A stretch of 47,889 nucleotides of DNA from Puniceicoccales bacterium. Its GTDB lineage: Bacteria; Verrucomicrobiota; Verrucomicrobiia; Opitutales; UBA953. Under the pieces are notes generated by a model. That model ran no database searches and was not told where the DNA came from. It saw only the letters and a program-made list of their open reading frames with translations. A program made the position numbers and the translations under genes. Location of the stretch: the NCBI GenBank assembly GCA_031285745.1, contig JAITVQ010000286.1:1-47889 (forward strand). Direction: 5' to 3'. Every line of letters begins with the position of its first letter. Positions within the stretch are counted from its first letter, which is position 1. Below, piece by piece: positions 2,068 through 17,959 of this stretch.

Positions 2068-2574
2068 AGTAATGCGTATTTTCACCACAGATCAGGCAAG
2101 GACAAGAGCCTAGATAGACCTGAATATGATTAAGATAGATAAAACAAAGATTATCCTGGCAAACATAGGAGTGAGGAGGTATCGCAGAAATCGGCTATCC
2201 ATCATTTGTCCCTGTCACATTTGGGCCTTTTTGTCCTAAATATGGGTAAAATACTAGATACCATAAACTTTCTATTCTGTATGAAGAGTATTCGAACCTT
2301 TGGCTAATTCAATGCTTTATGTAATCGCATAAATGGAGGGCCGAGCTCCTGCGAGGCCGTGGGCAAAGTAATAATAATGGGAAAATAGACATGCTCAACG
2401 TCGAGTCCCCATTCCAGAAAATTGCCTGATCCTGATATTCCCTTTTGGCCTCACTATCCTCATTTGGTTACAGTTTCCCAGACGCTCGCCCCTCTATCTG
2501 ATCTCTTGCTTCAGGGTAACAACGGGAATCATAGGCCGAATTTCTGGAAAAATGGGTTCTGAGTTATTATCAGC
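2068..2574. other. Gene-free stretch
   Basis: No convincing coding frame on either strand. The only feature I can name is a GC-rich phrase at 2333-2363 (GGAGGGCCGAGCTCCTGCGA and onward), which differs in composition from its AT-rich surroundings and resembles a dispersed repeat remnant. Composition is otherwise AT-rich, unlike flanking genes. Confidence 0.5.
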
Positions 2575-2630
2575 TTGTCCACATTCATTCACATTCCATA
2601 TTTTGTTAGATTAAACTGAATTGTGGATTA
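2575..2630. other. Cluster of three DnaA-box-like 9-mers
   Basis: TTGTCCACA at 2575-2583, TCATTCACA at 2585-2593 and TGTGGATTA (reverse TAATCCACA) at 2622-2630 each differ by one base from TTWTNCACA. A strongly AT-rich stretch follows (2600-2680). ParA is 2.3 kb to the left. This is compatible with a replication origin or a DnaA-regulated promoter, but one-mismatch boxes are common, so confidence is low. Confidence 0.25.
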
Positions 2631-2639
2631 TTTATCTTT

Positions 2640-2669
2640 AATTATTAACTTCGTTAAAAATTAATAATT
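2640..2669. promoter_or_regulatory. Inverted repeat upstream of fic
   Basis: AATTATTAA at 2640-2648 and TTAATAATT at 2661-2669 form a perfect 9-bp dyad with a 12-base spacer, ending 41 bases before the fic start codon. It could be an operator or part of an AT-rich unwinding region belonging to the adjacent DnaA-box-like cluster. Confidence 0.35.
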
Positions 2670-2710
2670 GCTTTAAATGGAAACGTAACTTACCCTCAAC
2701 GAACAAAATT

Positions 2711-4063
2711 ATGAAACTCCCGCTACAGCCACCGACGTTGGAAGCAATTCTTGGGAATGAGGCAACCCCGGTGGCAGGTTTATTGCAGAAATTCGGACAT
2801 TTGCCCCCGGAAAAATCCCTTTTTTGGCATTGGGACGAATTGTTTTCGCAGGAGGCCCCGGAGAATTTTTCCATCGAGGAATGGTGGGGAGTCTTGAAGT
2901 TGAAACGGTATTTTCAACAGGAACAATTGCCGCTGATCGGGATCGATAAAAAACCAGTCGTATTTGGGCAGCCTGGCACTGTTTTAGAATTTTTATACAA
3001 ATTGGATAGAAAACTCGGCAGCGAAACCACCCTCAGTCCGGGGGCATTATTTTCGTCCCGCGAAGAACGAAAAATCCACGCCCTTCACACATCTTTTGAA
3101 GAAGCCATCGCCTCGACGCAGCTTGAAGGTGCTACTGGAGACCTAGAGGAAGCCAAGATGATGCTGGCCACAGGGAGGCCGCCCAAAGACCCTTTCGAGC
3201 AAACGGTCACCAATAATCACGAGGCTTTCCTGTTTTTAAAGCAACGGATCGAGGAACCGTTTACCCCGGAAATCCTACTGGAAACACATCGTTTGGTCAT
3301 GAACAACCTGCTGCCCGAAAATGCCGATGGCGGAGGTCGGTTCCGGCGTGAGGATGAAAATATCCAATTGGAATCCTATGACAGGCAGGTGCTGTTTACC
3401 CCGCCCCCGACAGCCGAATTGCCTGAACGGATTCAAATACTCTGTGACTTTCTCAATGAGGACAGCCCTTACGGCAAATTCATTCACCCGTTGATTCGCG
3501 CCATCCTGGCCCATTTTTGGCTTTCTTATGAACATCCTTTTGTCGACGGGAATGGCCGGGTGGCGCGACTACTGTTTTACTGGTCGCTATTGAGGCAGGA
3601 TTATCCGCTTGCGGAACATATTTCCCTGTCGGGGGCCATTTTTAAAAACCCCTCTCCCTACTATCAGGCCTTTCTTCATGCGGAAACCGATGAGAATGAT
3701 GCGACTTATTTTGTGATTAACCAGCTGGAGATGATAGATGATGCGCTGGAAACATTTGTGACAACGGCCCGGGAGAAATTAGCCCAATCCGAAGAGATTT
3801 TTTCTCAATTTGATCATTTTACCTGGATTAATCACCGGCAGGAGCAGGTCCTGATCCATGCCCTGAAGCACCCCGGGGCCATTTACACCATTGAGTCGCA
3901 ACAGGGATTCCACCGGGTAAGTTTCGCCACGGCGCGCAGCGATCTGTTGGAGTTGGCCAAAAACGGGTTGCTATTGCTCCGCAAAACACGTCCTCACCGG
4001 TTTATTGCCCCGGCGGATTTGCCCGAACGGTTGAAAAAAGCAGCTTCCACGCAGACTCTTTAG
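2711..4063 (+). CDS. Fic-domain protein (AMP-transferase-like), self-inhibited class
   Basis: A 450-residue protein with an N-terminal DUF4172/Fic_N-like helical region, a Fic domain and a C-terminal winged-helix-like region. The Fic motif is complete: H275-P-F-V-D-G-N-G-R-V-A-R286; the histidine is the general base and the GNGR loop holds ATP phosphates. The inhibitory helix motif S/T-x3-E-G/N is present upstream as S135-T-Q-L-E139-G, placing it in the class with N-terminal autoinhibition in cis. Known members AMPylate target proteins on Ser/Thr/Tyr; the target here is unknown. The C-terminus ('HRQEQVLIHALKHPGAIYTIESQQGFHRVSFATARSDL', cut here for description) is consistent with a DNA-binding helix-turn-helix. 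Its stop is 3 bases before pabB, so the two are probably co-transcribed. Confidence 0.92.
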   Translation: MKLPLQPPTLEAILGNEATPVAGLLQKFGHLPPEKSLFWHWDELFSQEAPENFSIEEWWGVLKLKRYFQQEQLPLIGIDKKPVVFGQPGTVLEFLYKLDRKLGSETTLSPGALFSSREERKIHALHTSFEEAIASTQLEGATGDLEEAKMMLATGRPPKDPFEQTVTNNHEAFLFLKQRIEEPFTPEILLETHRLVMNNLLPENADGGGRFRREDENIQLESYDRQVLFTPPPTAELPERIQILCDFLNEDSPYGKFIHPLIRAILAHFWLSYEHPFVDGNGRVARLLFYWSLLRQDYPLAEHISLSGAIFKNPSPYYQAFLHAETDENDATYFVINQLEMIDDALETFVTTAREKLAQSEEIFSQFDHFTWINHRQEQVLIHALKHPGAIYTIESQQGFHRVSFATARSDLLELAKNGLLLLRKTRPHRFIAPADLPERLKKAASTQTL

Positions 4064-4066
4064 TTC

Positions 4067-5530
4067 GTGGCTGTCCCTTATCTAAAAGAAACCTCCGTTC
4101 AGGAATGGTTGGCAGTGCCGGAATCCGTGCGCTGGCTACCCGCCATGGCGACGGCATCGGCAGCCGGGTTGCCCAAGGATTGGTCGTCTTTTTGGACAAC
4201 TCACGCTTCGGCGTTATTCGAGTCAGGTCGATCCGGAAGGTGGACAGTGTTGATCCCTGATTTGGAAATGACCACGGGAATAAATGCTGCTCAACCCCAA
4301 CAGGCACTGGCGGAGCTCGCCCACTGGCAACAACAGAATCCGGGAGCACGGCTGGCTGGTTGGCCGGAATTCCAAGGCGGCCTGATATTGTTGATTTCCT
4401 ATGATCTGGTGCGGGCCTACGAACCGATCTCGGCACAGGCCAAGGATGACTTGGGAACATTGCCTATTATCGCGGGATTTGCGCGGGAGGTGCTGGTCTA
4501 TGATCATCAGGAAAAATCCGTGACAGCCATTGTGCTGGGAGATCGGCTGGTTGCGCCTTCTCTGGAAGAATTGCATGAAGCCTGCCTGGGGCGTGCCCGG
4601 AAATTACTGGCGAAATGGTTGGCTTGTCCCAGGCAATCGGAAAAAGCCCCTGTTCACCCACAGGCCAGCCAGCCCGCTCTGTCGCGTTTGGCTCCCGTTG
4701 CCACATTTGACGAGGTTTCCTTCTGCTCGGCAGTGCGCCGAGTTCAGGAATATATCGCCGCTGGAGACACCTATCAGGTGAATCTCTCCCTGCGGCAGAG
4801 TTTCCCGCTCACGGTCGATCCCGAACAAATTTACGAGACCCTGCGACGGATCAATCCCTCGCCCTACATGGGCTTATTGCGCACGCCCGGTTTAACATTG
4901 GTCAGCGGATCTCCCGAATTACTCGTTCGCACCTGTGGAGATCGACTGGAATCGCGCCCCATCGCCGGAACCCGGCCCCGGGGCAATGATCCTGCCGCCG
5001 ACCTGGCCCTTCTGCAGGAATTGCTGGCCAATGAAAAGGAGCGCGCGGAACACTTAATGCTGGTGGATCTGTTGCGCAATGATCTGGGCCGCGTCGCCCG
5101 GCGCGGTTCCGTTGGGGTGGATGAGTTCATGACTGTCGAGAGTTACTCTCACGTCATGCACCTCGTTTCCCATATTTCGGGCCACTTGGAAACCATGCCT
5201 GCAATAGACGATGTGTTGCGAGCGGTCTTTCCCGGAGGCACCATCACCGGCGCCCCCAAGGTGCGCACCATGCAAATTATCGAGGAGTTGGAACCTGTCC
5301 GGCGTGGTTATTATACCGGCGCTTTCGGCTGGCTTGGTCTCGATGGTTCGCTTAACTTAAACATTATCATCCGCTCGCTGATAGCCCAAAACGGTGTCGG
5401 CCATATCCAGGCGGGAGCAGGCATCGTCGCCGATTCCGACCCCGCCCGGGAATACCGTGAGTCCCTGAACAAGGCACTGGCGTTGGTGCGGGCACTGGAG
5501 GAAACCAAATATGAACGCCGCTTGGCTTGA
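4067..5530 (+). CDS. pabB: Aminodeoxychorismate synthase component I (chorismate-binding enzyme)
   Basis: A 487-residue chorismate-utilising enzyme, full length for PabB. The C-terminal catalytic domain shows SGSPELLVR (280-288), PIAGT (298-302), the NEKERAEHLMLVDLLRNDLGR block and PGGTITGAPKVRTMQII. It adds the amino group (from a glutamine amidotransferase partner, PabA/TrpG) to chorismate for p-aminobenzoate and folate. PIAGT instead of PIKGT is the anthranilate-synthase form of the loop, but it also occurs in a PabB subgroup; the downstream pabC favours PabB over TrpE. The GTG start at 4067 is 3 bases after the fic stop; an ATG at 4145 is an alternative. The 3' end overlaps pabC by 20 bases. 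Confidence 0.88.
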   Translation: MAVPYLKETSVQEWLAVPESVRWLPAMATASAAGLPKDWSSFWTTHASALFESGRSGRWTVLIPDLEMTTGINAAQPQQALAELAHWQQQNPGARLAGWPEFQGGLILLISYDLVRAYEPISAQAKDDLGTLPIIAGFAREVLVYDHQEKSVTAIVLGDRLVAPSLEELHEACLGRARKLLAKWLACPRQSEKAPVHPQASQPALSRLAPVATFDEVSFCSAVRRVQEYIAAGDTYQVNLSLRQSFPLTVDPEQIYETLRRINPSPYMGLLRTPGLTLVSGSPELLVRTCGDRLESRPIAGTRPRGNDPAADLALLQELLANEKERAEHLMLVDLLRNDLGRVARRGSVGVDEFMTVESYSHVMHLVSHISGHLETMPAIDDVLRAVFPGGTITGAPKVRTMQIIEELEPVRRGYYTGAFGWLGLDGSLNLNIIIRSLIAQNGVGHIQAGAGIVADSDPAREYRESLNKALALVRALEETKYERRLA

Positions 5531-6383
5531 TGGAAAAATTGTCGAAGCAAACGCACCGGGAATAGCCCTGACTGATCACGGACTTCTTTTCGGGGCTTCT
5601 TTCTTTGAGACATTCAGAACCACGCAACGAAAGCCCGGTTTCATATTGCGGCATCTGCGGCGGCTGGAAAACAGTTGCAACACCATCGGCATTCATCTCG
5701 CGGACACGCTGCTGGGGCATGGCGCCCGGTATGCCTGGGATGGCGTGCTGGGGCCCTTGCTGGATGCCAACGGGCTGGATGACGCAGTCATCCGTTATAC
5801 GGTAACAGCCGGCCCTGCCGAAGGCGGACCCGGCAGCGCCCACTACCTTCAGCCCCACGAATTTTTGCTGGTTCGGCCCCTGCCGCCCCCGGCTGACCGG
5901 ATCACCCTGCACCTGCTGGAAGGGCGGCGGACCGGCGGCGAATGGCATCCCCGACCCAAAAGCGGAAACTATTTGAACAGCCTCATACGAGCCCAGGAAT
6001 TTGCCAAACGCGGTGACGTCACTAGCGGAGACGAAGCACTGGTCTTGAATTCGCACGGAGAAATCACCGAAGGCGTTTTCTCCAGTGTATTCTGGTTGCG
6101 TGACGGGGTTTGGTCCACGCCCCGGCTGGAGACAGGCGCTTTGCCCGGAGTCGGACGAGAGGTAACCATTGAGGCAGCCAAGCGGCTCGGCTTTGCCGTC
6201 CACGAAGTGGCCCAAGGCTTCGAGGCCATCTGTCAGGCCACGGCCGTATTCATCACCAGCAGCGTTCGCGGCATCGTTCCGGTCAGTCGGATTATCGATA
6301 CTGCCGGGATTATCGTTTGGAATGCCGGGAAGCCAATATCTGCGCTTACCGAGCTGATTGAGGAGTTCGAGAAATTGAGGTAA
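5511..6383 (+). CDS. pabC: Aminotransferase class IV, probable 4-amino-4-deoxychorismate lyase
   Basis: A 290-residue fold-type IV PLP enzyme. N-terminal 'LTDHGLLFGASFFETFRT' is the family's opening signature; the PLP lysine is K150 in 'RPKSGNYLNSLIRAQE'; 'GDEALVLNSHGEITEGVFSSVFW' is the cofactor-binding block; 'LETGALPGVGREV' and 'AVFITSSVRGIVPV' follow. The overlap with pabB and its lyase-like length support PabC, which releases pyruvate from aminodeoxychorismate to give p-aminobenzoate. Branched-chain or D-amino-acid aminotransferases share the fold, so context carries part of the call. Confidence 0.85.
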   Translation: MNAAWLDGKIVEANAPGIALTDHGLLFGASFFETFRTTQRKPGFILRHLRRLENSCNTIGIHLADTLLGHGARYAWDGVLGPLLDANGLDDAVIRYTVTAGPAEGGPGSAHYLQPHEFLLVRPLPPPADRITLHLLEGRRTGGEWHPRPKSGNYLNSLIRAQEFAKRGDVTSGDEALVLNSHGEITEGVFSSVFWLRDGVWSTPRLETGALPGVGREVTIEAAKRLGFAVHEVAQGFEAICQATAVFITSSVRGIVPVSRIIDTAGIIVWNAGKPISALTELIEEFEKLR

Positions 6384-6429: not shown

Positions 6430-7599
6430 TCATTTTTCCGGAACCAGGGCAGTCCAAAGCACTGCGCGCTGGTGCCGGGAAGTGCTGGGACGATATTTTT
6501 CGGAAAGGTCGAGTTTCTCGCCAGCCCATTCCCATGCTATGCTCCACCATGGGATATCGTATTCAACACGTCCTACGATCTGGCCAGTATTGTTAATATC
6601 GAACGCGTAACTGTGATCGCCACTCAAGGCACCCAAGTCCATCATGCCGGTTTCCTGACTCCAAAAGAAAGCGTGGGTTTTTCCATTCTTGAGAGACGAC
6701 CAGCCGACCACTTGGTTCAAGTCGTTAATCGCGCTGGCGCGGCTATGGTTACCACCAAGCGTACCCAAATCAATCATCCCATCTTTATCAGTCCAAAGAA
6801 AAGCATGCGGTTCTCCCGTATCTGTGTTGGATTCCCCGACAACACAACCATCATTGTTGATAGCCCAGGCTTCGCTATTTATCCCGCCAAGAGTCCCCAA
6901 ATCGACCATGCCGGTTTTTTCCGTCCAAAGAAAGGCATGATCTTCCTCGGTTTTGGTTTCTGCGGAGCCAACCACCGTACCAGCGTTGTTGATATCAGCC
7001 GCCATACTTTTACGGCCGCCCAGCGTGCCTAAAATCTGCATGCCCCGTTCCCGGGTCCAAAGGAAAGCATCTTGTTCAACGAAGATTTTCCCCCGCCACC
7101 CCACCACGTCACCCAGATCATTGACGGCACAAGCCATACTTTCTTTTTCCTCCAAGGGTACCAGATCTTCCGCGCCATCTTCCCGGGTCCAGAGAAAGGC
7201 GCGAACATTGAGGTCGTCTGCCTCCATCCCTCCCACAATCACACCCGATTGATTGATCCTAATTGCCCAACTGACACCGTTGTTTCCCAAATCCATTGGT
7301 TGCATGCCTTGTTGCTTGGTCCACAGGAAGGCGAATTTTTTCTTATCCTTGGAGCGGACCCCCACGACGGTGCCCTGATCATTGATTGCCAGCGCATAAC
7401 TATATTCCTTGCCGCCTGCATCGAGAAAGAATGCTTTCTCCGGTGACAATAATGTCTGGCCTGCGATAATTAAAACTACCGCGAACAGAATCGCCACCCC
7501 GATAAAAAGCCCCCGACGCTTAAGAACCTTGCCGGAAGCCTTGGGTCTGGAAACAGAATGGCCTGTTGTGCTGTTCATTTTCGGCAAACGTAACTTCAT
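6430..7599 (-). CDS. HAF-repeat membrane-anchored protein (paralog 2)
   Basis: About 389 residues from ATG 7599; the stop of the upstream paralog overlaps as ATGA, suggesting translational coupling (ATG 7578 is an alternative). A basic N-terminus is followed by one transmembrane helix (LFIGVAILFAVVLIIAG), then about seven HAF repeats, each reading like 'HAFLWT..GM.DLGTLGG..S.A..IN..G.VVG'. HAF repeats (named for the His-Ala-Phe triplet) form extracytoplasmic beta structure in proteins of unknown role. With the neighbour it forms a duplicated pair, about half identical by eye. Confidence 0.85.
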   Translation of the reverse strand: MKLRLPKMNSTTGHSVSRPKASGKVLKRRGLFIGVAILFAVVLIIAGQTLLSPEKAFFLDAGGKEYSYALAINDQGTVVGVRSKDKKKFAFLWTKQQGMQPMDLGNNGVSWAIRINQSGVIVGGMEADDLNVRAFLWTREDGAEDLVPLEEKESMACAVNDLGDVVGWRGKIFVEQDAFLWTRERGMQILGTLGGRKSMAADINNAGTVVGSAETKTEEDHAFLWTEKTGMVDLGTLGGINSEAWAINNDGCVVGESNTDTGEPHAFLWTDKDGMIDLGTLGGNHSRASAINDLNQVVGWSSLKNGKTHAFFWSQETGMMDLGALSGDHSYAFDINNTGQIVGRVEYDIPWWSIAWEWAGEKLDLSEKYRPSTSRHQRAVLWTALVPEK

Positions 7600-8744
7600 T
7601 CGGATTTTGGGGCAGTCCAAAGCACCGCTTCATAATGGGGAGGCTTAGTGACAATATATTTGGAAGAAAGGCGAAGTTTTCGCCTGAGTTTATTCCATGC
7701 CTTAAGCCACCAGGGATCATCGTATCTAGCGTGTCCCACAATCTGCCCGGCATTGTTGATGTCCCGTGCATGGCTATGATCGGCCCCTGCTGTCCCCAAG
7801 TCGACCATGCCAGTTTCTTTGCTCCAAAAGAAAGCATGGGTACTTCCATTTTTGAGAGTCGAACTGCCGACCACCTGATTTGAGTCATTAATCGCCCTGG
7901 CGCAACTATAGTCACCACCCAAGGTTCCCAAATCCATCATCCCGTCTTTCTCGGTCCAGATGAACGCATGCGTTTCTCCCTGCTTTGTCAGCGACTCCCC
8001 AACGATGCAGCCAGCGTCGTTGATACCCCAGGCTTTGCTACGTGTTCCGCCCAGAGTTTCCAGATCGGCCATGCCAGTTTTTTCCGTCCAGAAAGAGGCA
8101 TGCTCTTCCCCGGTTTTCGTATTCGCGAAACCAACAACTGTGCCATCGTTATTAATGCCAGTAGCCTCGCTATCATCCCCGCCCAAAGTACCCAAGCTCC
8201 GCATACCTCGCTCCTGCGTGTAAAGAAACGCCTGCCGGCCAAAGGGGGAATATTCCACATATCCGACCACATCGCCGCGATCATTGATTGCCCAGGCGAA
8301 GCTACTATCCCTGCCCATGGTCCCCAGCTTGGTTGTTTCACCTTTTTGATTCCGAATAAATGCCCGGGAAGAGGTTCTTTCTGCATTTATCGTCCACCCG
8401 ACGATCCACCCGAAATTATTAATGTCTACCGCATGATCGAGACCTGTCTCTTTCGCATTCATTCTTTGCATCCCACTCAATTCGGTCCACACAAAGGCCA
8501 CCGTTCGCCCATCCTTGAAAGAATGGGATCCAACCGCCGTGCCCTTGTCATTAATAGCGGATCCCAAACTGTATTGCCCGCCCAGAGTGCCCAGAACGAT
8601 ACCTTGTTTGGGTTGCATGGAGTATATAACGACAATCGCCAGCAGCGCAATAATCAGGCCGACAATGGGTATCAGCTTCCGGGACCGGGACGTCTTTGGA
8701 GAAGTTCCAGCCGGCGAAACAGGGCTTGGGGTAGCACCACTCAT
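7596..8744 (-). CDS. HAF-repeat membrane-anchored protein (paralog 1)
   Basis: I start at ATG 8744 (MSGATPSPVSPAGTSP), 382 residues; an upstream in-frame ATG at 8849 would add a segment overlapping trmB and not resembling the paralog. A Pro/Ser-rich cytoplasmic tail, one transmembrane helix (LIPIVGLIIALLAIVVIYSM), then about seven HAF repeats such as 'THAFIWTEKDGMMDLGTLGG' and 'GINNDGTVVG'. First gene of a two-gene minus-strand unit. The function is unknown; repeated HAF units suggest a surface or periplasmic structural role (inference). Confidence 0.85.
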   Translation of the reverse strand: MSGATPSPVSPAGTSPKTSRSRKLIPIVGLIIALLAIVVIYSMQPKQGIVLGTLGGQYSLGSAINDKGTAVGSHSFKDGRTVAFVWTELSGMQRMNAKETGLDHAVDINNFGWIVGWTINAERTSSRAFIRNQKGETTKLGTMGRDSSFAWAINDRGDVVGYVEYSPFGRQAFLYTQERGMRSLGTLGGDDSEATGINNDGTVVGFANTKTGEEHASFWTEKTGMADLETLGGTRSKAWGINDAGCIVGESLTKQGETHAFIWTEKDGMMDLGTLGGDYSCARAINDSNQVVGSSTLKNGSTHAFFWSKETGMVDLGTAGADHSHARDINNAGQIVGHARYDDPWWLKAWNKLRRKLRLSSKYIVTKPPHYEAVLWTAPKSE

Positions 8745-8902
8745 GTTTACAGGGTGAACAAACAGAACATGTTTAAAATCCAAGGCAATACTGACTGTAA
8801 ATGGCCTGAATGGGCAGAAGCTTATTCCCGGTCGCTTTTCTTTGCCCATTGCCGGTGGTTTTTGCTTTTAAAAACCCCTTTCACCCCTTTCCTGCACGGG
8901 CC

Positions 8903-9499
8903 ATGTCTGAATCTGCCCGTGCCATGATCGAAGCCAGCCGCGTCGCGCGTATCGCCGCGTTGCGCGAACGTCTGACGGAGCAGCTTAAGGGCACCAACCA
9001 AATCACGTTGGAAATTGGCTGCGGCCACGGACATTTTCTTGCCGCCTACGCCGAGGCCTTTCCCGAAAAGTACTGCATCGGGGTCGATTTGCTGACAAAA
9101 CGGATTGAACGCGGCAATCGCAAGCGTGACCGGGGAGAATTCACCAACCTTGACTTCATCAAGGCCGAGGCAACGGAGCTTTTGGAGGCAATTCCCCCTC
9201 ATATTCACCTTGCCGAGATATTTTTCCTGTTTCCCGACCCTTGGCCAAAAAAGCGCCATCACAAGAACCGCCTGATCCAGGCCGCCATGCTTGACCGGCT
9301 GGCCGCTTTATCCCTCCCGGGGCAAACCAGATTGCATTTTCGCACGGACGATGCCGATTATTTTGCGTGGTCGATGAACTTGGTAAGCAAAAATCCCGCC
9401 TGGAAGCTCTTGCCGGAAGCCCCCTGGCCCTTTGAGCAGGAGACTTTTTTCTCCAAAATCCTGCCTGTCTATCAATCACTCATCGCACAACGGCAATAA
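8903..9499 (+). CDS. trmB: tRNA (guanine-N7)-methyltransferase
   Basis: 198 residues from ATG 8903; longer frames run upstream without family similarity. SAM-binding motif I is 'LEIGCGHGHFLAAYAE' (about 36-51), motif II 'CIGVDLLTKRI', and the TrmB signature 'FPDPWPKKRHHKNR' lies at 110-123. The enzyme methylates G46 in the variable loop of tRNAs. The frame ends 70 bases before pyk, and the two may share a transcript. Confidence 0.93.
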   Translation: MSESARAMIEASRVARIAALRERLTEQLKGTNQITLEIGCGHGHFLAAYAEAFPEKYCIGVDLLTKRIERGNRKRDRGEFTNLDFIKAEATELLEAIPPHIHLAEIFFLFPDPWPKKRHHKNRLIQAAMLDRLAALSLPGQTRLHFRTDDADYFAWSMNLVSKNPAWKLLPEAPWPFEQETFFSKILPVYQSLIAQRQ

Positions 9500-9569
9500 A
9501 TGCTGCTTATTATTTCTTTTTTCCGCTTCACACTGGAAACTCTCTTTTCCATTCTAGGAAATCTCTCTC

Positions 9570-11033
9570 ATGCGAACATCGTATCGACATACTAAAATCA
9601 CTTTCACGCTGGGGCCGGCGACTTGCGAACCGGCCATGTTGGAGGAAGTCATCCGCAGCGGAGCCGACGTTTGCCGCCTGAACATGGCTCATGCCGACCA
9701 CGATTGGGTACGCACAATGGTAGCCCGGGTACGGGCCGCCGGCGCCAAGGTGGGCCGCGATATTCCGATCATGATGGACGTGAAAGGTCCCGAAATCCGC
9801 ACGGGAGCCCGAACCGAGCCTCTCGAGCTAAAGACCGGCGACGTGGTGGACATGATTGTCGATCCGGATGCGCCCGCCAGCGAGGGCATTCCCGCCATCC
9901 CGGTAAATTACCCGCTGCTCGTCCGCGACGTTCCCGAAGGCGGCCTGGTCTTGGTGGACAACGGCCTGATCCAGTTGCGCGTTACGGAAAAAACCAAGGA
10001 ACGGCTTCGTTGTCGTGTGGAGCAACCCGGGCGCCTGGGGAGCCGCCGCCACGTCAATCTCCCGGGTATTCACGTCGAGTTGCCGTCACTGACAGAGAAG
10101 GACCGCAATGACGTCCGCTGTGGCGTGGAATGCGGAATCGACTTTTTCGCGCTATCCTTTGTCCGGAGCAGTTCCGATATCGATACGCTCCGTTCTTTTC
10201 TCAGCGAGCTTGGCTCACGCGCCCGCATCATCGCCAAGATCGAAGACCAGTCCGCCATCAATAACCTGATGGATATCATCGATGCCGCTGATGCGTTGAT
10301 GGTGGCCCGCGGTGACCTCGGCATCGAAGTGCCATATGAGTCTCTGCCGCTTATCCAGAAAAATGCCATCAAGCTGGCCATGACGGCGTGGAAGCCCGTC
10401 ATTGTCGCCACCCACATGCTGGAGTCGATGATTGAAAACCCCGTACCCACCCGCGCAGAAGTGACCGATGTGTCCAATGCCGTGTTGGAATTGACGGACA
10501 GCATCATGCTTTCGGGAGAAACCACCACGGGCAAACATCCGCTGAAGTGTATCGAGGTGATGACACGCATCGCCAAGAAAATGGAAGGCTCCCTGCCGGT
10601 AGGTTTCATCGGACATGCGCGCGCCAAACTGGATGCCAATCGCGGTGCGATGGCGCACACGGTTTTTGACGTGGCGAAAATCCAGATTCTGCATGCCGCC
10701 GCAAATCTGGCGCTGACCCTCGACAACGCTGCGGTGATAGTCTTTACCCGCAACGGTGACTTGCCCCGGGTGCTGGCCTCGTCACGTCCCCATGGGGCTC
10801 CGGTGTTCGCTTTCACGGAAGACCCGGTCATCTTGCGCCGCATGCGCCTGTCCTGGGGAGTAATCCCGTTCCTGCTGCCCTTCCAGGAAAAACAGGTTGA
10901 TACCATCCACGCTGCCATTGAATGCCTGAAGAAAGAAGGCTGGGCTGGATACGGTGATCATCTCGTGATCATGACCAACGCCATCCTCGACGGTCAGATC
11001 ATCGATAGCGTCCATCTCCACCGCGTGGAATAA
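9570..11033 (+). CDS. pyk: Pyruvate kinase
   Basis: 487 residues, near the family's usual length. 'TKITFTLGPAT' opens the barrel; 'RLNMAHADHDW' replaces the usual RLNFSHG; 'MMDVKGPEIRTG' follows; 'IIAKIEDQSAINNL' replaces AKIENxEG at the catalytic lysine/metal region; 'MVARGDLGIEVP', 'ATHMLESMIENPVPTRAEV' and 'TDSIMLSGETTTGKHP' are standard except for His in place of Gln in ATQ. The C-terminal alpha/beta domain is present ('VIVFTRNGDLPRVLASSRP'). It transfers phosphate from PEP to ADP in glycolysis. Slightly divergent but catalytic positions look intact. A strong terminator follows. Confidence 0.93.
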   Translation: MRTSYRHTKITFTLGPATCEPAMLEEVIRSGADVCRLNMAHADHDWVRTMVARVRAAGAKVGRDIPIMMDVKGPEIRTGARTEPLELKTGDVVDMIVDPDAPASEGIPAIPVNYPLLVRDVPEGGLVLVDNGLIQLRVTEKTKERLRCRVEQPGRLGSRRHVNLPGIHVELPSLTEKDRNDVRCGVECGIDFFALSFVRSSSDIDTLRSFLSELGSRARIIAKIEDQSAINNLMDIIDAADALMVARGDLGIEVPYESLPLIQKNAIKLAMTAWKPVIVATHMLESMIENPVPTRAEVTDVSNAVLELTDSIMLSGETTTGKHPLKCIEVMTRIAKKMEGSLPVGFIGHARAKLDANRGAMAHTVFDVAKIQILHAAANLALTLDNAAVIVFTRNGDLPRVLASSRPHGAPVFAFTEDPVILRRMRLSWGVIPFLLPFQEKQVDTIHAAIECLKKEGWAGYGDHLVIMTNAILDGQIIDSVHLHRVE

Positions 11034-11048: not shown

Positions 11049-11080
11049 AAAAGGCGCTGAGTTACTTCAGCGCCTTTTTT
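11049..11080. terminator. Bidirectional intrinsic terminator
   Basis: GGCGCTGA at 11053-11060 and TCAGCGCC at 11067-11074 form a perfect stem with A-rich and T-rich flanks. It ends pyk on the plus strand and the paralog array on the minus strand. Confidence 0.9.
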
Positions 11081-11085
11081 GTGGA

Positions 11086-12651
11086 CTACTTTTTGGTTTT
11101 ATCTTCCGGCGATTCCAATACCGAACGGCGCATTTCGTCAGAGGGCAATATATGGAATTCGAAAGGCATGGCCTCTGCATAACCTAATTGCATCGATTGC
11201 GGCCCATCCGTCGCTTTCCAGTCGAGCGGCATTACACTCCATCGGCCACTTGAGAAATTTTCTTCATGAAAATTCCATTTTAAGGTCGGGTTGACAACCC
11301 ACAGGACACTGTGTTCGGGATTTTCCGGAACTGCCCGAAGCAACAAGGCGGGCTTGTCTGTCAGCAAAATCATATAAGGAGTGGTTTTTCCAAAAATCAT
11401 CTGATCCCAGTAAAATGATTTTCCTTTTTCCCCACCCCAATAACTACCAGAATAGAAACTCTTGGTGTAGTTAGGTCGTTTAGAACTAGCTTGTCCGTAA
11501 ATTTCCCTTAGTCGCTCAAAACCTTTCACATCTTCTACAGTAATATTATCCGCGTCTAACATATAAGCACCTGGGCCCACCAAATACCCTGTCTGAATAT
11601 ACTTTTTTGCCCCGTCAGGCAGAATAATCGGAGAGGATTCCCCAGTGGAAGGAAGGTGTAATTTTTCCAGTAAAACACGGGCTTCAGCGTTAATCGTTTT
11701 CAAGTAACTAAACCGTGCGATTCCTTTAAATAACCATTCGGCAGCCTGCCCACAAACAGACCCTCCAGCGCCTCCTTGCGAATCCTCCAGGGAATATTTC
11801 ATTATTGTGTAATCCTTGTCTACGCAAACGCCCTCCCGTTCGAAATGAAATTTTGGAATCCAAGGAAAATAATATTCATCGTTTCTCCTGACCAGCCCAT
11901 CAAGAACCATTGAAACGCCCTGCAAAGGCTGACGAATAGGAAGCGAGGCAGCCGATGAAGCGGCAGGAGACCGTTTTTGAGGACTGGGATTTTTCAGAAA
12001 AAAAGTAACTGGCTGAGTCTCCCCTGGGAAATTAATGACGAGCTTTTGCTTCTTGGCACTGTTGTTAAAGCCCTCGAAAGAAATGCTGTGAGCCACCTCC
12101 ACGGTTGATCCATCACGCCAATAATGGGTAATTAAATTTCCGCTTGAATATACACATCCATCTTCATCAACAAGACAGGCTTGCTTACGGGTAATGGCAT
12201 ATCCACCCGAACCACCCAAACCACTTCCGTTTTGGCCAAGTATGTCTTCTGTCATTTCCGGACAGAATCCTCGTTTTGGATTGGAGAGTGTATACCAAAT
12301 GCAAAAATTTTCTTTTCCTTCGGACATTACCTTAAAATCCCCCATGCCATTGGGCGGGTTTACTTGCAAGGTTTCAAAAATAAATTGACCCCACTTTTCT
12401 TTATGTATCCAGATTTTCATTCGCTGCAAAATATTTTTGAAATCATAAGTCGGGTCTTTGGCTACCTCCACTTTTACGATTTTGACAATGGTGCCATCGG
12501 ACAATGTGGCTCGCAGTTTATTCTCCTGGATGATCGCAACCAGAGCCAACGTCAGCAACACTGCTAGAACGAAGGCGATGCCCGCTAATCTACGCTTGGG
12601 TGAGGGTTTCGTTGAGGTGCGATCTGTAGTCTTCTCAGGCTGGAGTTCCAT
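11086..12651 (-). CDS. Membrane-anchored protein of unknown family, paralog A
   Basis: 521 residues; last gene of a four-copy minus-strand array. N-terminal Lys/Thr/Ser-rich tail (1-24), one transmembrane helix (about 25-45, LAGIAFVLAVLLTLALVAII), then about 475 extracytoplasmic residues. Shared landmarks: 'LSDGTIVKIVKVEVAKDPTYD', 'WYTLSNPKRGF', 'LVDEDGCVYSSGN', 'FEGFNNSAKKQKLVINFPGE', 'FFLKNPSP', 'DSQGGAGGSVCGQAAEW', 'LVGPGAYMLDADNI', 'LLTDKPALLLRAVPEN' and 'QLGYAEAMPFEFHILP'. The DGC and VC cysteines are conserved and could form a disulfide. The 'DxDGC...F.GFN...K.L.I.FPG...F.L.NP' stretch looks like a beta-sandwich. I do not recognise the family. Confidence 0.8.
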   Translation of the reverse strand: MELQPEKTTDRTSTKPSPKRRLAGIAFVLAVLLTLALVAIIQENKLRATLSDGTIVKIVKVEVAKDPTYDFKNILQRMKIWIHKEKWGQFIFETLQVNPPNGMGDFKVMSEGKENFCIWYTLSNPKRGFCPEMTEDILGQNGSGLGGSGGYAITRKQACLVDEDGCVYSSGNLITHYWRDGSTVEVAHSISFEGFNNSAKKQKLVINFPGETQPVTFFLKNPSPQKRSPAASSAASLPIRQPLQGVSMVLDGLVRRNDEYYFPWIPKFHFEREGVCVDKDYTIMKYSLEDSQGGAGGSVCGQAAEWLFKGIARFSYLKTINAEARVLLEKLHLPSTGESSPIILPDGAKKYIQTGYLVGPGAYMLDADNITVEDVKGFERLREIYGQASSKRPNYTKSFYSGSYWGGEKGKSFYWDQMIFGKTTPYMILLTDKPALLLRAVPENPEHSVLWVVNPTLKWNFHEENFSSGRWSVMPLDWKATDGPQSMQLGYAEAMPFEFHILPSDEMRRSVLESPEDKTKK

Positions 12652-12660
12652 TTTTCGGCG

Positions 12661-14229
12661 CTATTGATTGGGCTTGGTCTTGGGAGATACTAATAGGGCC
12701 TGGCGCATTTCGTCCGTCGGCAGGATGTGAAACTCAAACGGGATGGCTTCCGCATAGCCTATTTTTATCGATTGTGGGCCATCCGTTTCTTTCCAGTCGA
12801 GCGGTATCACGTCCCATTTATTATCGGAGAAATCGCCTCGCATGGAATTCCATTTGGCTGATGCGCCTGAGATCAATAAAATGGCATGCTCGGTATTTTC
12901 CGGTGCAGCACGGAATAACAAGGTGGGTTTATCCGTTAATAAGAGTAACTTGGACGTGGTTTTTCCAAAGATCTCTTGCTCCCAATAAAAGGATTTTTGA
13001 TCCCGCATTCTTCTTCCATATTGTCCGGAATATAGACTTGAGACTGTCCTGACATTTCGTGGGTGAGGGATTTTTGCGAAAATACTCTTTTGTTTTTCCA
13101 GTTCATCAACACCTCCGACAGACACAATCTCGGTGGAATCCAATACATAGGTACCAGCTCCCACCAAGTAGGCTCTGAGCACAAATTTTTTCGCATCAAC
13201 CGTGAGGTCGATGGGGCGCCATTCTTGCGGCTGTGGCCAAACAAGATTTTCCAATTGAATTCGTTTGCGCGACTCAATCACGTCCACTCGGGCCTTTCGG
13301 GCAACTCCCTTGAGTATCCATTCACCAGCCCTGGCACAGACATCGTCTTTGTCTCCTCCTTGGGAATCACTCAGCGTATATTCCACCGTCGTGTAATCCT
13401 TATCCGCATTAGCATTGTTACGTTCAAAATGAATTTCTGGCTTCCATGGATTATACGCGTTTTTTGTTTTGGTCAGTTTGCTGAGGAGAATGGAGGCATC
13501 GCCCAAGGATTGCTTTATGGGGATTGATGAAGCCATTGCTGACGCAGGGACCCATTTTCGCGGACTGGGATTTTTCAAAATGAAGATAACAGGTTGTTTT
13601 TCTCCAGGAAAATTAATGACAAGTTTTTGTTTTTCAGAGGCATTATTAAAGCCCTCAAATGAAAAACCATGGATACGTTGTATGGTTTCCCCAAATTTCT
13701 GGTATTCTGCGGTCATCCACCCTTTTGAAGACGAGCATCCATCTTCGTCGACAAGGGCTACCTCTGCCGAGGAAAAACTCCGCATGGATGAGCCACTGGT
13801 CCCTCTTTCGACCAAATCATCATCCGCCATATCAGAAAAGAATCCGCATCGGGGATCACTAAGTGAATACCACACATGAAATATTTCATTTTTATCTCTA
13901 CCACGAACAGTAAAAACTCCAGCGTCACTGGGTAGATCTATTTTTATCACTTTAAGAATAGATCGCTCCCATCCTCGCGCTTGGAGCCATCCGCCCATCC
14001 GTTGCAAAAAATTGCGCGAATCGTATCTTGGTTCTTTGGATACTTCTACTTTTTCGATTTTAACAATGGTGCCATCGGATAACGTGGCTTGCAGTTTGTT
14101 TTCCTGCACACTCCCAACCAGAATGAGCACCAGCAACACCGCTAGAACGAGGGCGAAGCCCGCGAACTTACGTTTGACCGATGGTTTCGTTGAGGTGCGG
14201 GCTGTGGTTTTCTCAGGGTGCGGTTCCAT
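12661..14229 (-). CDS. Membrane-anchored protein of unknown family, paralog B
   Basis: 522 residues, closest to paralog A: the N-termini match almost word for word (MEPHPEKTTARTSTKPS against MELQPEKTTDRTSTKPS). Transmembrane helix at about 25-45. It keeps every array landmark: 'LSDGTIVKIEKVEV', 'WYSLSDPRCGFF', 'LVDEDGCSSSKG', 'LVINFPGEKQPVIFILKNPSP', 'DSQGGDKDDVCARAGEWILKG', 'YLVGAGTYVLDS', 'LLTDKPTLLFRAAPEN', 'IKIGYAEAIPFEFHILPTDE'. Separated from A by 9 bases, so co-transcribed. Recent tandem duplication of A/B is likely from their similarity. Confidence 0.8.
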   Translation of the reverse strand: MEPHPEKTTARTSTKPSVKRKFAGFALVLAVLLVLILVGSVQENKLQATLSDGTIVKIEKVEVSKEPRYDSRNFLQRMGGWLQARGWERSILKVIKIDLPSDAGVFTVRGRDKNEIFHVWYSLSDPRCGFFSDMADDDLVERGTSGSSMRSFSSAEVALVDEDGCSSSKGWMTAEYQKFGETIQRIHGFSFEGFNNASEKQKLVINFPGEKQPVIFILKNPSPRKWVPASAMASSIPIKQSLGDASILLSKLTKTKNAYNPWKPEIHFERNNANADKDYTTVEYTLSDSQGGDKDDVCARAGEWILKGVARKARVDVIESRKRIQLENLVWPQPQEWRPIDLTVDAKKFVLRAYLVGAGTYVLDSTEIVSVGGVDELEKQKSIFAKIPHPRNVRTVSSLYSGQYGRRMRDQKSFYWEQEIFGKTTSKLLLLTDKPTLLFRAAPENTEHAILLISGASAKWNSMRGDFSDNKWDVIPLDWKETDGPQSIKIGYAEAIPFEFHILPTDEMRQALLVSPKTKPNQ

Positions 14230-14238
14230 TTTTCGAAG

Positions 14239-15562
14239 TCATTCCTTGGATTTGGTTTCAGGGGATACTAATAGAGGTTGGCGCATTTCTTCCGTCGGCA
14301 GGATATGAAACTCAAACGGGATGGCCTCCGCATAGCCTATTTTTATTGATTGCGGACCATCCGACTCTTTCCAATCCAGTGGCACCACATTCCACTTATC
14401 GGTTGAAAAATCTTTTTCGACCAAGTTCCATTTCAAGGTCGGATTGGAAACCAGCAAAGCACTGGATTCGGTATTCTTCAGCGCAGATCGTAGTACAAGC
14501 GCAGGTTTATCCGTCAACAAAAGCAACCGGGGTATCGTCTCCCCGAATATTCTTTGCTCCCAGTAAAAGGACTTTTTTTTCTCCTCATCCCAGTAGCTAT
14601 TGGAATAAAAAATACGGGAGGAATTCACCCCTGATGGCCGCGACATTTTTTGAAAAACGTCTTTCTGGTTTTCCAAATCATTGATTCCTCCAGCTGAGAT
14701 GACATCGTTTTCATCAAGCACATAAGTCCCAGCTCCGACCAAATACGCTTTCGTAATATATTTCCGGGTTTCACCGGGGATATCAACTGGACGATATTCC
14801 TGCGGTTGGGGAAAAAGCGAGTTTTCCAATGGAATACATTTTTCGGAATCAAGAATCTCTTGTTTTTTGGCCCGCATCACCCCCTTGAGCACCCATTCCC
14901 TAGCATGAACACAAATTTGCCCCTGGCCTCCGTTCTGCGTGTCACCCAGGTCGGAATTTATCACCATATAATCCTTGTTCGCATCAACACCATTGCACTC
15001 AAAGTGAAGCGTGGAGGCATAATAAGTAAGGAAGCGGGTTTTATACAATTTAAGGTCGCTCAAAGTGATTGAGACATCCCCCAAGGATTGTTTCACAGGG
15101 ATTGGCGAAGCCAGAGGAGATAAGGGAGGCCTTGTCCCTGAGATTGCCAGATCCCCATCTGCTGGAGCTACGGTTGCCTGCAAGAACCCTATCAACCTCT
15201 TCTGGAAAAAATCCCTTTTTCGGATCGCTGAGTGTATACCATACGAAAAATACCGGATGATCTTGGTCAGACATTTCAAAAATGCCTGATTTTCGAGGTG
15301 GTTTTATTCCAAATACTTTTAAAATGGAGCGCCCCCATTTGTATTCATTGAGCCATTCTCCCGTTTTTTGCAAAGGACTACGCGGATCGTAACGCGGGGT
15401 CTTGGTTACTTCTACCTTTACGATTTTGACAATGGTACCATCAGGCAATGTGACCTGCATTTTGTCATCATACAAACTTCCCCAAATAACCAGTATGGCT
15501 AAAATCAATACTGCCACACCGATCCCTGCGAATTTGCGTTTGATGGCTTGTTTCATCGGCAT
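14239..15562 (-). pseudogene. Paralog C, broken by an internal deletion and frameshift
   Basis: The N-terminal part reads from ATG 15562 (MPMKQAIKRKFAGIG, transmembrane helix, 'LPDGTIVKIVKVEVTKTPRYD', 'WYTLSDPKKGFF') up to 'NLRDKASL' near 15120-15140, where intact paralogs continue 'LVDEDGC'. The C-terminal part resumes in another frame at 'SPLASPIPVKQSLGDVSITL' and runs to 14239 with all later landmarks. The locus is about 240 bp shorter than A, B or D, so roughly 80 codons holding the DEDGC and FPGE blocks are gone and the frame is shifted. Both halves are otherwise well kept, so the loss looks recent. A single base error plus real in-frame loss cannot be excluded. Confidence 0.8.
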
Positions 15563-15574
15563 GGCTAATGCAGG

Positions 15575-17125
15575 TTATTTTTCCGGTCCGGATGGCGAAA
15601 CTGAGCGACGCATTTCTTCCGTCGGCAAAATGCGAAACTCAAAGGGCATTGCCTCCGTATAGCCTATTTCCAACGATTGTGGGCCATCTGTTTCTTTCCA
15701 GTCAAGCGACACTATACTCCATTTGCCGGCAGAAAAATCTTTTTCAACCAAGTCCCATTTCAAGGCTGGATTGGAAACCAACAAGGCACTCTGTTCTTTA
15801 TTAGTAGGCTCAGACCTTAACAAGAGGGCAGGCTTATCCGTCAGTAAAAGCAATCGGGGTATTGTTGTATCGAGCACTTTTTGCTGCCAGAAAAATGACT
15901 TTCTTTTTTCCTCATCCCAGTAACTTTCAGAATAAATGCTCCCGGAATAATTCGTTCCGTCTACTTGCGGCATTTTCTCCAAAAGCTCTTTCTGTCTTTC
16001 CAGCGCATCCAACCCCCCGGTCGAGACAACATCGTTGGCAGCGTCAAAGACATAAGTTCCAGCTCCCACCAAATAGATCTTCGACACAAATTTTTTCGTC
16101 GCATCCGGTACATCAACCAGATGATATTTTTCCGGTTGGATAAATGGGAGATTCTGCAATTCAGCCCGGTTTTCCGGTTTTACTGCCACCGTGCGTTTGG
16201 CACAAAAGAACCCTTTCAAAATCCACTCACTGGCCTTTGCGCAAACTGCCCAACTATCCCCACCTTGCGAGTCGCTTAACTTATATTCAAACGCCATGTA
16301 ATCCTTGTCCGCATCCGCTTCTTTGTTTTTGAACCGGAATTTTGTTTCCCAATCATGGACTGCATCAAGACTGATGGTTTCCAGAGCGGTTTTTTTCTTT
16401 TTGAAAAATTTTTCCAAAACAATCGATACCTCACCCGAAGTTTGCTCAATGGGAAGAGATGATGCCATGGGTGATGCGGCCTGAGCTTTACGCGGACTGG
16501 GGTTTTCCAAAATAAAGGTGACCGGTTGTTTTTCCCCAGGAAATGTAACGCTGAGTTTTTGCCTTTTTGCAGTGCGATTAAACGCTGTGAACGAAAAAGC
16601 ATACATGGTTACTACGCTACTATCCTCGAATTTCAGAAGTTGGCCCCACATATCTCCCTCCGAGTATATGCAACCATCCTCATCTATAAGATGTGCTTCG
16701 CCTGGAGAAATGCCTGACATCGATGATAGCATTGCTGTGTCTCTTTCCGAACTGGCCTCTAGGAACATTGGAGAAAAAAACCCACGTTGAAGATTGCTGA
16801 CTGAATACCAGATATGGAATGCTTCCTGCTCCGTGTCTTCACCAACGAAATAGAGGCCATCATCAGTTAGAGTTATTCCCAATTTCCAGAGAATGGATTG
16901 GCCCCATTCCCTCTTATTCAGCCATTCATTCAGCCGATACATACGACCGCGTGTATCGTAAACCGGAGTCTTGGTTACCTCCACCTTTTCGATTTTAACG
17001 ATAGTGCCGTCCGATAATCGCGCCTGTAGTTTGCCGTCTGCTAGACTCTTGATTATCGCCAATATTCCAATGACCAACAGGGCAACACCGATCCATGCAA
17101 GTTTCCACTGGGTAGTTTTTTTCAT
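15575..17125 (-). CDS. Membrane-anchored protein of unknown family, paralog D
   Basis: 516 residues; first gene of the array and 12 bases from C. A short basic N-terminus (MKKTTQWK), one transmembrane helix (about 9-27), then the extracytoplasmic part with the shared landmarks 'LSDGTIVKIEKVEVTKTPVYD', 'WYSVSNLQRGFF', 'LIDEDGCIYSEGD', 'FPGEKQPVTFILENPSPRK', 'DSQGGDSWAVCAKASEWILKG', 'YLVGAGTYVFDA', 'LLTDKPALLLRSEP', 'LEIGYTEAMPFEFRILPTEEMRR'. It is the most divergent intact copy. It is divergent from cmk; the 162-bp gap between them holds a dyad that could act on either promoter. Confidence 0.8.
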   Translation of the reverse strand: MKKTTQWKLAWIGVALLVIGILAIIKSLADGKLQARLSDGTIVKIEKVEVTKTPVYDTRGRMYRLNEWLNKREWGQSILWKLGITLTDDGLYFVGEDTEQEAFHIWYSVSNLQRGFFSPMFLEASSERDTAMLSSMSGISPGEAHLIDEDGCIYSEGDMWGQLLKFEDSSVVTMYAFSFTAFNRTAKRQKLSVTFPGEKQPVTFILENPSPRKAQAASPMASSLPIEQTSGEVSIVLEKFFKKKKTALETISLDAVHDWETKFRFKNKEADADKDYMAFEYKLSDSQGGDSWAVCAKASEWILKGFFCAKRTVAVKPENRAELQNLPFIQPEKYHLVDVPDATKKFVSKIYLVGAGTYVFDAANDVVSTGGLDALERQKELLEKMPQVDGTNYSGSIYSESYWDEEKRKSFFWQQKVLDTTIPRLLLLTDKPALLLRSEPTNKEQSALLVSNPALKWDLVEKDFSAGKWSIVSLDWKETDGPQSLEIGYTEAMPFEFRILPTEEMRRSVSPSGPEK

Positions 17126-17255: not shown

Positions 17256-17274
17256 TGTAGTACGATGTACTACA
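17256..17274. promoter_or_regulatory. Operator-like dyad upstream of cmk
   Basis: TGTAGTAC, a 3-base centre (GAT), then GTACTACA: a perfect 8-bp inverted repeat ending 13 bases before the cmk ATG and 130 bases upstream of paralog D. The position fits a repressor site over the cmk start region or a small RNA hairpin in its leader. The half-site GTAGTA/TACTAC resembles words in BlaI-type operators, but the arms are in the opposite order. Confidence 0.45.
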
Positions 17275-17287
17275 AAAAGAATACTGC

Positions 17288-17959
17288 ATGGGTTCTTCTT
17301 CTTTCATCACCATTGCCATTGATGGCGGCGCGGCTTCGGGCAAGTCGTCCACGAGCCGGGCGCTGTCGTCTCGTTTTGGACTAATGCATGTCGATACCGG
17401 CGCGCATTACCGCACAGTATCCCTGGCCTTGGTTCGGGCTGGAGTAACTCCCGATGATGCCGAGAAAGCGGCGCAGGAATTGAAGTCCATTCCATTGGAT
17501 ACTGTAGTATCGGGAAATAACGCACGATTGGCCATCAATGGTGAAGTTCCCGACGATGCGGATCTAAGGACTCCCGAGATCAATGCCGTGGTGGCCCAGT
17601 TTGCGACGCTGCCCTGTGTACGCCGGTTTCTTTACGATTATCAGCGCGGACAAGTGGCCGTAGCAAAACAACGCGACTTTGCCGGGTTGATCATGGAAGG
17701 TCGCGATATTGGCTCAGTTATTTTGCCGGAGGCTGATCTGCGGTTATTTCTTGAGGCCGATCCAGTGGCACGGGCTGCTCGCCGTGCTGCAGAAGGACGG
17801 GTGGATGCAGTCGCCCAACGGGACAAGATAGATGCCTCTCGGGCGACGGCTCCCTTGGTTTGCCCCGAAGGAGCGACAAAAATAGACAGTACATATCTCA
17901 CGTTGGAAGAAGTCGTGGAGAAAATAGCCGGGATGATTTCGGCATTGTTGAATAAATAG
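17288..17959 (+). CDS. cmk: Cytidylate kinase
   Basis: 223 residues, standard length. P-loop 'GGAASGKSS' (13-21), 'HVDTGAHYRTVSLAL' (the usual DTGAMYR with His for Met), 'LIMEGRDIGSVILPEADLRLFLEAD', the lid 'RAARRAAEG', and 'KIDASRATAPLVCPEGATKIDST' which binds CMP/dCMP. It phosphorylates CMP and dCMP with ATP. It starts at ATG 17288 and is 20 bases before plsC. Confidence 0.95.
   Translation: MGSSSFITIAIDGGAASGKSSTSRALSSRFGLMHVDTGAHYRTVSLALVRAGVTPDDAEKAAQELKSIPLDTVVSGNNARLAINGEVPDDADLRTPEINAVVAQFATLPCVRRFLYDYQRGQVAVAKQRDFAGLIMEGRDIGSVILPEADLRLFLEADPVARAARRAAEGRVDAVAQRDKIDASRATAPLVCPEGATKIDSTYLTLEEVVEKIAGMISALLNK

Follow-up and report, generated by a model that had tools for sequence, protein, structure and literature searches.

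A dispersed family of predicted membrane-anchored beta proteins behind a four-copy tandem array in a Puniceicoccales bacterium

Four similar genes stand head-to-tail on the minus strand of a 47,889-nucleotide stretch of Puniceicoccales bacterium DNA (contig JAITVQ010000286.1; here called the window), which raises the question of what kind of protein is kept in so many copies, where else it occurs and what the copies might do.

The array and its neighbourhood

The array occupies positions 11086-17125 and, as an earlier sequence-only reading had described, consists of four tandem paralogues, three of them intact with 516-522 residues. In transcription order, copy 1 (15575-17125; 516 aa) is an intact open reading frame (ORF) homologous to the other copies, copy 2 (14239-15562) is broken, and copies 3 (12661-14229; 522 aa) and 4 (11086-12651; 521 aa) are again intact. 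Copy 2 carries a frameshift and is split into two ORFs in different frames (15050-15562 and 14239-15279); furthermore, DNA alignment reveals that approximately 240 bp inside domain 1, which hold the DEDGC...NP segment in the neighbouring copies, are absent. The break may be genuine, making copy 2 a pseudogene, or may reflect misassembly of a draft that is rich in repeats. Pairwise identity among the intact copies is 43-51%, and protein comparisons between array copies give E-values of 6e-124 to 2e-143, far beyond chance. The genes are spaced only 9-12 bases apart, and copy 4 is followed by a strong hairpin (11049-11078, minus strand; -19.5 kcal/mol, z -4.9) that lies between the array and a convergent pyruvate kinase gene and is likely to act as a two-way terminator. 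Its position is consistent with a single transcript for the array, without proving it.

From their sequence and general knowledge, we take the genes on either side to encode pyruvate kinase (pyk; 9570-11033, plus strand) and a cytidylate kinase-like protein (cmk; 17288-17959, plus strand). A 17-bp palindrome with perfect 7-bp arms (GTAGTAC-ATC-GTACTAC, 17257-17273) is located in the spacer from which copy 1 and the cmk-like gene diverge, around 15 bases before the start of the latter, and is a possible operator for either gene. Further out in the window, two adjacent minus-strand genes with DUF3466 matches (6430-7620 and 7596-8849) form a second tandem pair upstream of the pyruvate kinase gene, and a Fic/DOC-domain protein is encoded at 2711-4063 (plus strand), before an anthranilate-synthase-type gene. 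The arrangement pyk-array-cmk was considered as an ancestral site and rejected: in the closest congener that has both genes, the order cmk-plsC-dnaN is kept with a different upstream neighbour, and pyk is found on another contig with other neighbours. A clean empty site is therefore not demonstrable.

A family dispersed through one genome

The array is only part of its family, as at least 10 more members are encoded elsewhere in the same genome. When the assembly (2.96 Mb in 299 contigs, 92% complete) was searched with one copy as the query and then with growing profiles, at least 14 members were recovered at eight loci, including the four of the array. The remaining members are found on contigs C248, C171, C38, C195 (three in tandem), C4, C10 and C178 (two in tandem), those on C171 and C10 being cut by the contig edge, and 13 of the 14 copies have an uninterrupted frame over whatever length is available. 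Each begins with a short tail and one hydrophobic helix, followed in nearly all by a strand of the type [L/F]xDGTxxxxEKVE, and most branches end in a strand pair of the type xIGxxxxxPFxFxxxP. In a maximum-likelihood tree the array (C265; support 100/100), the C195 cluster (100/99) and C248 with C171 (100/100) each form a clade of their own, while the C178 pair has long branches and support of only 85/86, and the deeper branching is uncertain. The larger clusters thus group separately, so that tandem duplication came after dispersal.

No mobile element, toxin or nuclease was recognised by eye beside the loci that were read, where the flanking genes look like ordinary chromosomal or housekeeping genes; there is no recurrent partner gene at the family loci, and a search for a shared upstream motif gave nothing better than shuffled sequence. 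Within the C195 cluster (L032), the second (7473-9296, plus strand) and third (9154-10674, plus strand) members overlap by approximately 140 bases in different frames, and the second has a C-terminal extension that is missing from the others. At another locus (L011), where genes were named by eye, an AraC-type regulator precedes a lone member (4808-6214), and an ECF-sigma-like gene and one for a small one-helix protein lie further upstream; the coordinates of the upstream features are 2071-3236 and 3867-4718 (plus strand).

The copies are diverged and show signs of constraint. For the intact array copies dN is 0.41-0.50 and dS exceeds 2, so that any dN/dS ratio is rough because dS is saturated, although dN well below a saturated dS indicates that the duplicates are old and constrained. 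Divergence is uneven along the genes: copies 3 and 4 reach 80% identity in the first 180 columns of their alignment and mostly 42-68% beyond, the 3' ends of copies 2 and 3 agree at approximately 80%, and block-wise identity rises to 80% at some array ends versus approximately 55% elsewhere. Gene conversion is the simplest reading that this mosaic suggests. The members on C248 (L009:3357-4922, minus strand) and C171 (L010:3-1565, plus strand) go further, being identical in their last 43 residues with only synonymous changes in the DNA, while identity over the whole of their aligned coding DNA is 55%; this tail is likely to be a gene-conversion tract kept by strong selection.

Searches beyond this genome returned little. 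The sequence-only reading had called the protein unrecognised, and it remains so: no family in Pfam, NCBIfam, PHROGs or PADLOC reached its curated cut-off or a significant E-value, the PDB sequences gave no match, and no confident match to a well-described family emerged. No homologue was detected in phages and plasmids (tblastn), in viral contigs or in pattern-scanned genome and viral collections. Eight congeners (75-94% complete), for which nearly all candidates were scored, contained no relative, and none was found in further genomes of the same taxonomic family and a sample of the order, nor, apart from the distant homologues described below, by direct profile search of broad samples of the phylum. 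The large scans used draft genomes, and their negatives are weaker than they look because the prefilter passed no more than a few candidates from each genome to scoring. Among the titles listed by a literature search for such an expansion in Verrucomicrobia, none concerned this family. Among the genomes searched it was found only in this bacterium, and on these comparisons it appears to be undescribed and lineage-restricted.

Distant homology does extend to single-copy proteins of other Verrucomicrobiota. Among the weak profile hits from other genomes (L060-L073, L114 and L117), those that were read were judged to be chance, save one, L067, which was chosen by eye: a single-pass protein of the family's length in Verrucomicrobiota bacterium JB023 (JAUTCR010000031.1), the best direct hit of the profile at E 0.31. 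It has relatives in Roseibacillus persicicus (NZ_BMXI01000004.1) and two further genomes of the same class. The shared class places the genome of the array in Verrucomicrobiota, and its kinship with other genomes suggests that the order is probably Opitutales. Profile alignment (hhalign) of 13 own-genome members with these four distant homologues gave 96.7% probability, E 3.2e-10 and a score of 85.7, versus at most 22.2 for 200 column shuffles, 22.8 for a reversed profile and at most 25.0 for 16 unrelated window proteins. The array copies alone matched at E 5.5e-7, in an alignment that covers 218 columns and begins in the membrane helix. As the controls score low and the match is long, a chance match is unlikely. 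The distant proteins share a length of approximately 470-540 aa, one hydrophobic helix at the N-terminus with a DG-type beta strand after it, the order of core motifs up to F.LPNP...LP and, at the close, the xIGxxxxxPxxxF pair of strands, but they were found as one copy per genome, lack the DEDGC cysteine, share only 13-17% aligned identity with the family and were not picked up by ordinary sequence search. Queries from these homologues found nothing in the genome that carries the array, no Pfam family matched L067 and no NCBIfam family matched any of the four.

Predicted architecture

An AlphaFold2 model of copy 3 built from 11 own-genome sequences (pLDDT 72.9, pTM 0.64) places a helix at residues 18-45 (14095-14178, minus strand), after a short tail containing Lys and Arg, and then mostly strands, with poor prediction near residues 386-425. 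The single transmembrane helix that had been proposed is thus predicted in the 522-aa copy, and the structure prediction that had been called for yields an N-terminal helix and an all-beta ectodomain. The best-modelled part is domain 2 (residues 229-376; 13102-13545, minus strand), which is all-beta with pLDDT 85 when modelled alone. The beta-sandwich that had also been proposed holds as far as an all-beta ectodomain in the model; a sandwich of any known type is not supported, as Foldseek returned no match below E 0.001 for the full model (PDB and viral structures) or for domain 2 (PDB), the model confidence being moderate. Similar-looking half motifs were considered as an internal duplication, but hhalign between domains gave E 0.1-0.7, with off-diagonal matches that were correctly placed and not significant.

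A short basic tail before the helix points, by the positive-inside rule, to an N-in/C-out topology, and the helix would then be of the signal-anchor type. Copy 1 has a putative signal-peptidase site (SLA-DG) after its hydrophobic stretch, so that this copy may be a cleaved, secreted protein and not an anchored one. Two cysteines had been described as conserved, and this is true of the array and of its nearest branch (C248/C171) but not of the other branches; the pair thus does not define the family. In copy 3 they are C165, within the DEDGC motif (residues 161-165; 13735-13749, minus strand), and C298, within the second shared motif VC (residues 297-298; 13336-13341, minus strand), and a C165-C298 disulfide is possible. 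DEDGC is conserved in the array, reads DEHGC in the C248/C171 branch and is found in no other branch. Across 13 members only G359 is invariant.

Possible role and alternative explanations

We favour, with roughly even confidence, a lineage-restricted expanded family of beta proteins that are anchored in the inner membrane, face the periplasm and have a binding or structural role, with paralogues specialised by partner; topology, location and role are all inferred. A single-copy ancestral gene, still seen as the distant homologue in other Verrucomicrobiota, would have spread to at least eight places in the chromosome, with tandem duplication at three of these. Gene conversion would then have homogenised the ends of the copies in part, and purifying selection would have held the copies, save one that was broken by deletion. 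Each member would present a short cytoplasmic tail, one signal-anchor helix and a mostly beta periplasmic ectodomain of approximately 450 residues from the inner membrane. The role would be non-catalytic, either structural or in binding an envelope ligand or partner: the family shows no conserved catalytic motif, and the absence of invariants that look catalytic, together with the all-beta model, argues for binding, while no fold or function match that would back such a role was found. The suggestion that the paralogues differ in partner or ligand is plausible and compatible with the data. FecR-type regulators are likewise single-pass proteins with a periplasmic beta-rich part, but they have an N-terminal cytoplasmic anti-sigma domain, whereas the tail before the helix in the array family is only 10-25 residues or so, with no such domain and no Pfam match. 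Lineage-specific expanded envelope families, as a general class, share the dispersed and tandem copies, patchy distribution and mosaic copies, but the array family fits no described family and carries no known surface-anchoring signal.

Alternatively, the helix could be a cleaved signal peptide and the products secreted or outer-envelope beta proteins, serving as adhesins or surface binders in a diversifying repertoire. The multi-copy, lineage-restricted and all-beta nature of the family and the SLA-DG site of copy 1 fit this explanation, but in the C195 branch the helix is not followed by a small-X-small site, no repeats, outer-membrane anchor, lipobox or sorting signal were seen, and dN and dS reveal constrained copies with no measured sign of accelerated protein change, so that we regard it as rather unlikely. 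A horizontally acquired conflict set, in which diverged copies act in immunity or as defence accessories against different partners, would account for the patchy distribution, the many diverged copies and the one broken copy, as well as for the G+C content of the array (0.45), which is lower than in the neighbouring pyk (0.585) and cmk (0.545). Other family members span 0.37 to 0.51, however, so recent transfer is unproven by composition alone, and the lack of PADLOC or PHROG matches and of phage, plasmid or viral contig homologues, together with the housekeeping surroundings, where no toxin, nuclease or mobile gene was seen by eye, makes a conflict set improbable. Neutral or selfish expansion, in which copies with no dedicated function are kept by duplication, could explain the one broken array copy but is disfavoured as very improbable, since 13 of the 14 copies are open despite saturated synonymous sites and dN is well below dS.

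A broader version of the preferred explanation can be put forward tentatively: the array and its distant homologues could define a new Verrucomicrobiota superfamily, from which a single lineage would have built up an envelope repertoire comprising at least 14 diverged, tethered beta receptors or binders with gene conversion between copies. If the preferred explanation is right, approximately 21 kb, or 0.7%, of the 2.96 Mb genome is given to a family that has had no name, structure or function and was not detected in the congeners searched. The members assembled here could seed a new family model with a defined set of sequences. Furthermore, the single-copy relatives, dispersed copies and tandem arrays form a natural series in which to ask why a bacterium expands an envelope protein.
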